Source of the DNA: Alternaria dauci
Lineage: Eukaryota; Ascomycota; Dothideomycetes; Pleosporales; Pleosporaceae
Reading direction: 5' to 3'
DNA length: 64,000 nucleotides
Assembly (NCBI RefSeq): GCF_042100115.1
Contig: NC_091274.1
Location: 1,364,001 to 1,428,000, forward strand
The translations under genes were made by a program, and so were the position numbers. Positions 21,136 through 38,724 of the stretch are shown one piece after another (positions within the stretch are counted from its first letter, which is position 1; every line of letters starts with the position of its first letter). The notes under the pieces were generated by a model. The model searched no databases, was not told the origin of the DNA, and worked only from the letters and a program-made list of their open reading frames with translations.

Positions 21136-22712
21136 ATGTTTACAGCCCCGCGGTTGCGTCTCCTTGCCGTGAACAGCCGCCTTCAACCCCGCCCAAGCAT
21201 GTCGTCACCTCGCTCCCGGGCTGGCTCCCGCCTGAAGCAGATCTCCAAGCATATAGACTCCAAGCCCTTTCTCGAGTTGAACACTCCCTTCTCCACCGAA
21301 CGCAGCGCCCGCATCGAAGACGAACAAGGCAACCGCATACTCCCCGACAAAGGCGAACAAGCCAAGCTCAAGGAAGCCAAGCAAGAATTCAAGAAGGAAA
21401 TAGAGGAGGTCAAGAAGCTTGCGCCGGAACCACCCAAGAATATGTCGAGCCAAGCACCTCACCCTGCGCTGCTCATTCCTGGGCCCATTGAGTTTGATGA
21501 TGCCGTCCTTTCGTCCATGAGCCATTACAGGTAAGATGCCCAGAGTGCTGTTTGCATCGTCTTCATCAGTATTGACCGCCTCCAGTGAATCGCATGTCGG
21601 TCAACCCTTTGTAAACACTTTCAGCCAAGTCCTTGGAAACCTACGCAAGCTGTTCCTCTCCACCGACCCTGCCGCCCAACCCTTCGTCATCTCCGGCTCT
21701 GGCACACTCGGCTGGGATCAAGTAGCGGCCAACTTAGTAGAGCCGGGCGACGAGGTGCTCGTCCTACATACTGGCTACTTCGCTGACTCCTTCGCCGACT
21801 GCTTCGAAACCTACGGTGTCAAGGCCACACAGCTCAAGGCACCTATTGGCGACCGACCACAACTCGATCAAGTCGAGGAGGCACTCAAGGAAAAGGACTA
21901 CAAGATCCTCACCGTTACACACGTCGACACTTCAACTGGTGTGCTCAGTGAGATCAAGGCACTGAGCGAGCTAGTTCACAGAGTCAGTCCTGAAACACTG
22001 GTCGTCGTCGACGGTGTCTGCAGTGTTGGCTCCGAAGAGATCCGCTTTGACGAGTGGAAGCTCGATGCTGTACTTACAGCTTCACAAAAGGGCATTGGCT
22101 GCCCAGCTGGTCTGAGCATTATGATGGTATCTGGCCGTGCGATTGAGAGGTTCAAGGCGAGGAAGACGCGTCCAACCTCCTACTTTGGCTCATGGAAGAA
22201 CTGGCTACCAAGTAAGACACCTCCATCTTCAGTGCAAACGCATGCAGAAACCTAACACAATCACAGTCATGCAAAACTACGAAGCCAAGAAGGCTTCCTA
22301 CTTTGCTACACCCTCCCCACAATTGATACACGCGCTCGACACGGCGCTCAAGCAGATCCTCTCCCGGCCTGTTGAAGATTACTGGGCCGCACACAAGGCT
22401 GCATCACAAAAGGTCAAGAAGGCTGTGGCAGACCTCGGTCTGAAGCAGCTTGCTTCCAAGCCGGAGAACCAGGCCACTGGTATGACTGCTATCTACTTAC
22501 CTGAGGGTATGACACCCCCGGATGTTCTGCCCAGCCTGTTGAAGAAGGGCGTCATCTTTGCTGGTGGTCTGCATAAGGAGATCGCAACCAAGTACATTCG
22601 GTTCGGACACATGGGTGTCAGTGTAACCGACCCGAACCGACCAGACATCACCAAGGCCATTGAAAGTTTGAAAGAAGGTCTGGTAGAAGCTGGCTACAAG
22701 GCGCCTGCGTAG
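21136..22712 (+). CDS. AGX1: Alanine-glyoxylate aminotransferase (class V, PLP)
   Basis: Three exons: 21136-21530, 21586-22211 and 22267-22712, with 55-bp introns. PLP enzyme making glycine and pyruvate from alanine and glyoxylate. Landmarks: LLIPGPIEFDDAVLSSMSHY-SESHVGQPF (split by intron 1), STDPAAQPFVISGSGTLGWD, TVTHVDTSTGVLSE, VDGVCSVGSEE and the PLP lysine in TASQKGIGCPAG. Three in-frame ATGs compete. That at 21442 gives 386 residues, the usual size. Those at 21199 and 21136 add 81 and 102 residues. The longest form begins MFTAPRLRLLAVNSRLQPRPS, a good mitochondrial presequence, so two forms with different targeting are possible. No C-terminal peroxisome signal (ends KAPA). Confidence 0.92.
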
Positions 22713-37703: not shown

Positions 37704-38044
37704 GTTCGCAATCGAGTCGAGAAGAGCTTGGTTTGCGTTGAAGCTGAGATGAGTTGAAATGACGAGACTGAGTTGAGTCCGCAACTGGGCGTGTTTTTAT
37801 ACTGCCTCTCATCATCGGATAGCACATGCAGATGCCATACTGCGTAGGTGGGTATTAATATGACCGTTTGCATATTTCTGACATTGACTGCAGAGGTAGG
37901 AAGGTTTCTACTCTCGTTCGTCTAAGGATTTTGAGTTGTGAAACAAATGAAGCAAGAAATCAATCTACGCAGAGCCCAACGGATCAACTTCTTCCTCAAG
38001 CAACTGGACTGAGCCAGAAGTCTCAATGAAAAAGGTAGGTTCGC

Positions 38045-38286
38045 GTCTGCCAGATGTAGTGCAATACTGGCGACACTATGCCAGCAAGTATGAGCAAGCC
38101 CAGTGACTTGCCGGCTGGTTTCAAAAATAAGAATAATCTTGAATTTTCCCGTAGGAAAGTTTCAGAGATTAAACTGAAAAGAACAGACTGTAAACCGTTA
38201 GCGCACGGACGGATTGTGACTTAGATTAAGTGGGGCGGGCCAGGCTTACTACTACACTTGATCTAAGCCAAAAGGCAAAGAGAGCT
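38045..38286 (-). ncRNA. U2: U2 spliceosomal snRNA, interrupted by an intron
   Basis: On the minus strand the sequence runs CTCTTTGCCTTTTGGCTTAG, ATCAAGTGTAGTA, then 62 bp of insert, then TCTGTTCTTTTCAGTTTAAT. The ungapped version is the universal U2 5' domain (U6-pairing segment, branch-site-recognition GUAGUA, stem IIa). Downstream come stem IIb (TTTCC-TAC-GGGAA), an Sm site (ATTTTTG in TTATTTTTGAA), stem III (CCAGC..GCTGG) and stem IV with the conserved UAUUGCA loop (GCCAG-TATTGCACTACAT-CTGGC). The mature RNA would be about 180 nt, normal for U2. The 5' and 3' ends are set by comparison and are good to a few bases. A TATATAAA element lies 33-40 bp upstream. U2 base-pairs with intron branch sites in splicing. 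Confidence 0.93.
38188..38249 (-). other. 62-bp spliceosomal intron inside the U2 snRNA gene
   Basis: Starts GTAAGC, has GCTAAC (38197-38201 for CTAAC) shortly before the end, and ends TTTACAG. Removing it joins GTGTAGTA to TCTGTTC exactly as in U2 of other eukaryotes. It sits directly after the branch-site-recognition sequence. Confidence 0.9.
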
Positions 38287-38318
38287 GCCGAAGAAACGAA
38301 GGGCGGGAGGAAGGCGGG

Positions 38319-38326
38319 TTTATATA
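38319..38326 (-). promoter_or_regulatory. TATA box of the U2 gene
   Basis: TATATAAA on the minus strand, 33-40 bp upstream of the inferred U2 5' end. Confidence 0.65.
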
Positions 38327-38577
38327 GACTTTGGAAAGCTCTGAAAGACGCTAGTGTCCTAGCCTCGCACCACGCGTTGCCGGGTCAATGGTGACGTAAA
38401 GAGACGTACAGAGTGGAGAAAAGTGGTCTGGATGATGTCGGAAGGTAGGCGGTAACGGCGAAATTATGCGTGGTGCGGGTCTGGGAAAGGCATAATGGCT
38501 CTGATTCGATACCTTGTGAGGGGCCGCAAACAGCCGATATTCCGGTGTGCACTGAGCCGTGTTGCATAAGGTGTGCA

Positions 38578-38724
38578 TAATCATGTCACGCCATAGAAGG
38601 GAAAAATCGAACGCCACTCTTGTAGTCGCCTAGGTAGAGTATCGCTACGTAAGGAAACTAACTGCTCTCCCTGTAGTCGCCTAGTGGGGTGTTCGATTTT
38701 TCCCTAGTATGGCGTGATGTTATT
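38578..38724. mobile_element. Short inverted-repeat element, MITE-like
   Basis: Two arms of about 42 bp face each other: left 38578-38619 and right 38683-38724. They share TCACGCCATA and AGGGAAAAATCGAAC with few mismatches. The inner part carries a 13-bp direct repeat TGTAGTCGCCTAG at 38621 and 38672. No coding capacity. Size and layout fit a non-autonomous DNA transposon of Tc1/mariner type, but no clear target-site duplication is visible. Confidence 0.6.

Follow-up and report, generated by a model that had tools for sequence, protein, structure and literature searches.

A U2 snRNA gene interrupted by an mRNA-type intron beside its branch-binding segment, and its paralogs, in Alternaria dauci

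Direct reading of the 64-kb stretch of Alternaria dauci DNA analysed here (henceforth the window) revealed a U2 snRNA gene on the minus strand, at about 38286-38032, that is interrupted by 62 bp at 38249-38188. The minus-strand order across the interruption is GATCAAGTGTAGTA / GTAAGC...GCTAACGGTTTACAG / TCTGTTCTTTTCAG: positions 38286-38250 read AGCTCTCTTTGCC...GATCAAGTGTAGTA, while TCTGTTCTTTTCAG runs from 38187 onward. The features of the locus, in the direction of the gene, are as follows (C3b denotes a second U2 gene on the same contig, C3):

38317..38329, minus strand: TATA element (GTCTATATAAACC); a TATA-like element lies 42-44 nt before AGCU in all four U2 copies of the genome
38250..38286, minus strand: U2 exon 1, AGCTCTC...GTGTAGTA, 37 nt identical in C3b
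38255..38273, minus strand: exon-1 partner of the antisense segment listed below, comprising the end of stem-loop I, the U6-pairing GAUC and the start of the branch-binding region
38188..38249, minus strand: 62-nt mRNA-type intron, GTAAGC...CAG, identical to the C3b intron in 52 of 64 alignment columns
38214..38232, minus strand: intron segment antisense to U2 exon 1 at 16 of 19 positions
38197..38202, minus strand: branch-site consensus GCTAAC, with the branch A 10 nt before the intron end
38032..38187 (3' end approximate), minus strand: U2 exon 2, with UCUGUUC, stems IIa and IIb, the Sm site and stems III and IV
38118..38130, minus strand: Sm site (TTATTTTTGAAAC)
37991..38031, minus strand: 3' element, TTTCATTGA-hairpin-TTGAGGAAG, also found downstream of U1, U3 and U4 genes in this genome; no second match on either strand within the window

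The true 5' end of exon 1 probably lies 1-2 nt further upstream. The gene matches the Rfam U2 model with 96.6 bits against a cut-off of 46 and is the sole Rfam match at gathering score in the window; cmscan places the 5' part of its alignment wrongly, within the insert. Both the GUAGUA branch-binding segment and an Sm site are there, as are stems I, IIa, IIb, III and IV, with covariation, and an upstream TATA element, and the Rfam match together with the sequence bears out an earlier, sequence-only reading of this DNA, which had described everything in the gene other than the interruption as intact. The insert sits exactly between two conserved U2 segments: in the Rfam U2 consensus, GAUCAAGUGUAGUAUCUGUUCU is a single strongly conserved run, and the window gene splits it by 62 nt. 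Excision of the 62 nt rejoins GUGUAGUA-UCUGUUC and restores GUGUAGUAUCUGUUC exactly.

The insert has the signals of a major-class intron, namely GT-AG ends, starting with GTAAGC and closing with CAG, and a GCTAAC branch site whose A lies 10 nt ahead of the 3' end; it is absent from the same site in two uninterrupted relatives (the U2 genes on contigs C5 and C10, see below). Nine ORF-supported introns of the window, hand-picked from 22 listed rows, served as the reference for mRNA introns; they measure 48-59 nt, with the branch A 9-13 nt from the end, compared with 55-62 nt for the U2 introns of this genome, so that the window intron is slightly long at 62 nt. All four U2 introns start with GTA[AC]G, contain CTAA[CT] with the A 10-14 nt from the end and close with CAG. 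A strict pattern combining these signals with a length of 55-62 nt, written after the four U2 introns had been seen, matches only three of 1,023,080 combinations of start and length over the two window strands: the U2 insert, the ORF-supported intron at 22212-22266 and one other place. The agreement with ORF-supported mRNA introns of the window supports an ordinary intron in U2.

Among the 120 best of 1742 matches to the Bud6/Aip3 ORF of the window, the top named one is Alternaria panax (98% identity across the full query), followed by Alternaria conjuncta, Stemphylium, Decorospora and Pyrenophora; on this one protein, the DNA most likely belongs to a Pleosporaceae fungus in or near Alternaria. 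An Rfam search of the whole genome (34.9 Mb in 10 contigs) returned four U2 matches above the cut-off, on C10 (109.8 bits), in the window on C3 (96.6), at C3b (92.4) and on C5 (85). The C3b gene bears a homologous intron of 60 nt at the same place as the window intron (C3:2827148-2827207), the C10 gene is uninterrupted throughout, and the C5 gene is uninterrupted at GUAGUA-UCUG but has two other introns. C5 intron 1 (55 nt, C5:528776-528830) lies near the 5' end, between AGCUCUC and UUUGCC, and C5 intron 2 (62 nt, C5:528656-528717) separates CUAAA from ACUGG in the 3' strand of stem IIa. The family thus has four introns at three positions, in three of its four genes. Both C5 and C10 read AAGTGTAGTATCTGTTCT without interruption, and in a pattern search of the genome AAGTGTAGTA and TCTGTTCT occur within 30 nt of each other at exactly two places, these same two genes, directly joined in both. 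Excising C5 intron 1 restores AGCTCTCTTTGCC as in the window gene and C3b and puts the TATA-like element 42 nt before AGCU, compared with 43, 43 and 44 nt in the other copies; excising C5 intron 2 gives a IIa-IIb spacing equal to that of C10. The C5 copy has a weaker Sm site (GUUUUUG versus AUUUUUG) and an extra A before GUGUAGUA, from which it may be in decay.

With the sequence itself and the uninterrupted paralogs on C5 and C10 in hand, we confirm a U2 gene split by an mRNA-type intron; the sequence-only reading, which had placed such an intron right after GUGUAGUA in a dothideomycete, was right in this and in its coordinates, and had not foreseen a family of four genes in which one further copy shares the intron, one has two others and one has none. 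A search with the 3' exon for further U2 copies recovered the window gene, C3b, C5 and a fragment on C2 and missed C10, and a 5'-exon pattern had three exact matches in the genome and three with three mismatches. Beyond this genome, which was the fungal part of the comparison, the collections comprised prokaryote, virus and plasmid genomes, in which six viral and three prokaryote contigs match ATCAAGTGTAGTAGTRNG. Since TCTGTTC follows within 150 nt of the match start in none of these nine, we took them as chance matches and not as split U2 genes; a second scan for split U2 among viruses found none.

Are the intron-bearing copies alive? When the four U2 copies are spliced and laid on a structure of 41 pairs, 97.6% of 164 cells are paired, a figure that favours the window copy somewhat, as the structure was written from it; the unpaired cells are two in C10 and two in C5, with none in the window copy. 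Both sides have changed in 19 of the 41 pairs; 0 of 500 shuffles reach these values, and pairing falls to 31-48% when the partners are slid by 1-3 columns. Between the window gene and C3b, five pairs have changed on both sides and none is broken. The same two genes are identical in exon 1 (37/37) and nearly so from UCUG to the Sm site (69/70), with identities of 0.81 for the intron, 0.69 for the 3' domain, 0.70 for the TATA-to-start stretch and 0.71 for the 3' element, while their flanks (0.47-0.48) are at the level of shuffled sequence and cannot be aligned. Because the core exons are near-identical between unalignable flanks, both genes are probably live. Retained exon identity beside dissolving flanks is unlike what dead genes display, and exons split at an essential point are useful only if the intron is removed. 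Gene conversion over the 5' half, rather than selection, could lie behind part of the exon and intron similarity of this pair.

These comparisons bear directly on the rival reading that survives best, that the intron-bearing copies are silent relics and the cell draws its U2 from C10, which is intronless. In favour of this reading, the C10 gene scores highest against the Rfam model (109.8 bits), is free of inserts and has both a TATA-like element and the 3' element, and its predicted U2/U6 helix II pairing is about equal to that of the other copies (-13.0 versus -13.3 kcal/mol). The GAUC of U2 takes part in U2/U6 helix I. Here C10 departs from the conserved core, reading GACCAAGUG with GACC for GAUC, whereas the window gene, C3b and C5 read GAUCAAG (C5 as GAUCAAAGUG, with its extra A), and helix I is predicted to be weaker in C10 (-3.4 versus -5.3 kcal/mol). 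The copies with a fully canonical core are the two that bear the GUAGUA intron, the window gene and C3b. Set beside the exon identity and the five compensatory changes of that pair, this leaves silent relics distinctly unlikely. The sequence-only reading had named an intact, expressed U2 elsewhere, with the window locus silent, as what would speak against it; C10 supplies the intact copy, and with it only half of what was named.

A second rival, that the 62 nt are an expansion segment kept in the mature RNA, is highly improbable. The insert folds with the exon, and a retained hairpin is conceivable, but the splice signals at the insert are precise, the site lies inside a strongly conserved segment of the Rfam consensus, two copies lack the insert, and C5 has different inserts with the same signals. 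The faintest chance falls to an intron belonging to a mobile introner-like family spread through the genome: introner-like elements are reported as a recent intron gain in Dothideomycetes (PMC4457414), the group to which this fungus also belongs, but a search of the genome with three of the four introns (the window intron and both C5 introns; it skips very common words) found only U2 loci, no flanking target duplication was seen by eye, and the lack of multiplied copies outside U2 speaks against such multiplication for these three.

We then compared the other small RNA genes of the genome. Among its Rfam matches to U1, U3, U4, U5 and U6, none has an intron-sized insert, so that introns are confined to U2 among the snRNAs here as far as these searches go. 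The matches comprise three U1 copies (59.9, 58.4 and 39.4 bits, all below the Rfam cut-off), one U4, one U5, two U3 and, for U6, two full copies that score equally, a 3' fragment and a degenerate copy. U1c, U3 and the degenerate U6 were judged by their spans and raw sequence, the remaining copies (U1a, U1b, U4, U5, both full U6 genes and the U6 fragment) by their alignments. The U6 3' fragment is in inverted orientation at about 230 bp from one of the full copies (C1 5437718-5438105, locus L010), and the degenerate copy is on C4 (L011).

The 3' element of the window gene follows all four U2 genes, U1a, U1b, U4, both U3 genes and two snRNA-like genes on C2; it was not matched after U1c, U5 or U6. 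Its presence at all four U2 genes is a further sign that the intron-bearing copies are live. The element folds as one composite hairpin with a stem of variable sequence, and this common element is probably a signal for 3'-end formation. An upstream element resembling GTCACATGACC..TAGCGTGCCAAG precedes the TATA element of U1b, U1c, C3b, C5 and a U2-like chimera on C2, is visible by eye at another distance in U4, and also matches one unrelated place in the window. It was not matched before the window U2 gene, C10, U1a, U3, U5 or U6, so that it supports C3b and C5 more than the window gene. The C2 chimera (near 1300365-1300446, minus strand, L035) was found by DNA similarity and is not seen by Rfam as U2; its snRNA-type upstream element and TATA are followed by a 5' part unlike U2, an Sm-like site, stems III/IV resembling those of U2 and the shared 3' element. 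Divergent from it lies a U4-like stretch (L035:1947-2097, plus strand; 13.9 bits, E 5.5, far below the cut-off) with an Sm-like site and a 3' element of its own. A repeat with AGGC(G/A)ACTACAG lies near two U2 genes and one U1 gene: in the window at about 38631-38716, in L003 near 1251-1310 and downstream of U1b (L006).

Taken together, we consider it likely, with a probability of roughly 0.86, that the U2 gene of the window works and is split by an ordinary intron of the major-spliceosome kind between GUGUAGUA and UCUG, as one of a dispersed family of four genes, three of them with introns (four in all, at three positions) and one without. RNA polymerase II would transcribe the gene from its TATA/upstream element, spliceosomes already holding mature U2 from any copy would splice the pre-U2, and the 3' end would be made via the shared downstream hairpin element. 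The supply of U2 would then depend partly on splicing capacity, with the intronless C10 gene as a source independent of splicing. The sequence-only reading had proposed a self-dependent loop, in which U2 is needed to mature U2. Three of the four U2 genes have introns, but a strict loop is not established, since C10 needs no splicing and can in principle supply U2. That unspliced U2 RNA is defective, as had also been suggested, is plausible; GUGUAGUA stays intact in the window precursor, and unspliced C5 RNA is predicted to lose part of its helix II pairing (-8.2 versus -13.3 kcal/mol).

The intron itself holds a stretch antisense to its own upstream exon, for which the evidence is moderate. 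Reverse-complemented exon 1 agrees with this stretch (CACTTAATCTAAGTCACAA in the window) at 16 of 19 positions, and with its C3b counterpart in 19 of 23 alignment columns; as these introns are homologues, the match counts once, and the region was chosen after the match had been seen. In the folded precursors of both genes, the exon from the end of stem-loop I to GUG hairpins with the intron at probabilities of 0.7-1.0, except for the C before AAGUG, and the splice donor is predicted to lie in the apical region of this exon-intron hairpin. Measured against exon 1 only, 6 (window) and 1 (C3b) of 10000 intron shuffles score as high, and the scores of 26 and 28 exceed the maximum of 21 among 44 intron-like controls against exon 1 and of 18 among 29 candidates against their own upstream 37 nt. 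With all of U2 as the target, the match does not stand out (40 and 52 of 5000 shuffles score as high), and unrelated intron-like candidates reach 26 and 28. By duplex energy, the window intron gives -21.0 (30 of 2000 shuffles as low) and the C3b intron -27.4 (1 of 2000), compared with -22.5 for one of the 44 controls with exon 1 and -27.3 for one of the 29 with its own upstream stretch. No antisense segment was seen in the C5 introns.

The antisense stretch may have been left by an inverted duplication from which the intron arose, may serve to keep unspliced U2 out of spliceosomes, or may be down to luck. A bolder proposal, which we hold to be unlikely, makes the transcript a self-masked 'pro-U2': the intron would pair with the end of stem-loop I, the U6-pairing GAUC and the start of the branch-binding region, unspliced U2 would be barred from spliceosomes, and only mature U2 would unmask new U2, while the repeated gain of introns in U2 only, at places that pair with U6 or flank the branch contact, would reflect reverse splicing in the active spliceosome. 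Of the three intron positions, one falls in the segment that pairs with U6 in helix II, one beside the branch-binding segment and one in stem IIa; insertion into U2 by reverse splicing inside the spliceosome would favour the U6-pairing and branch-adjacent positions. The C5 introns are similar to one another, with CCAGGTCC, CTAA and CTA..CCAG in common. Their global score of 45.5 is reached by 0 of 500 shuffles and by 2 of 990 pairs of intron-like candidates, for a pair chosen afterwards from six; a pair that we hold to be unrelated, the C3b intron and C5 intron 1, reached 7 of 500, which indicates that shared splice signals inflate such scores. The resemblance hints, suggestively only, that one C5 intron gave rise to the other.

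Three of the four genes for the splicing RNA U2 thus appear to bear introns, and the splicing machine seems to need splicing for a core part of its own. If the window gene and C3b are the main sources of U2 with a canonical core, that machine relies on its own operation to obtain an essential RNA. The genome has members without introns, with one and with two, which makes the family a natural experiment that allows tests of entry by reverse splicing, of U2 dose versus splicing capacity and of the role of unspliced U2.

Introns in structured RNA genes have precedents. For fungal U6 snRNA genes they are reportedly on record from Tani and Ohshima in 1989 and 1991 and from Canzler and colleagues in 2016, likewise as spliceosomal introns inside a spliceosomal RNA. 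U6 is a Pol III gene; here it is uninterrupted in two full copies, while the U2 gene has a TATA element and the shared 3' element. Ascomycete rDNA is said to harbour spliceosomal introns too (Bhattacharya and colleagues and Cubero and colleagues, both in 2000), again in conserved parts of a structured RNA gene, but ribosomal RNA entails no dependence on its own product, unlike U2 here. A study of fungal U3 snoRNA genes describes short introns, with intron-bearing and intronless paralogs together in eight genomes, and names U3 and U6 as the sole small structured RNAs in which interruption by an intron is known to be frequent (PMC5832005). The genome analysed here likewise mixes such paralogs, but for U2 rather than U3. 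The closest parallel comes from the yeast Rhodotorula hasegawae, whose U2 gene has an mRNA-type intron, reportedly described by Takahashi and colleagues in 1993; this intron is said to be 60 bp long and to lie immediately downstream of the branch-site recognition domain, and the U6 gene of this yeast is said to have several introns. The window intron likewise follows the branch-site recognition segment immediately and, if the R. hasegawae intron lies as reported, occupies the same place, so that a U2 intron there would not be new as such. R. hasegawae provides the only report of a U2 intron in the literature examined, and we do not claim that others are absent from print. What is new relative to what we found is that the U2 intron is in an ascomycete, that four genes with and without introns, at three positions, form one family, and that the intron has a stretch antisense to its exon. 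R. hasegawae is a basidiomycete with several reported U6 introns, whereas we deal with an ascomycete, with four U2 genes, three intron positions, one gene with two introns and one without, and none seen in the other snRNAs. A U2 intron in a second fungal phylum, at what is reported to be the same place, suggests either a recurrent target or a single intron of great age.
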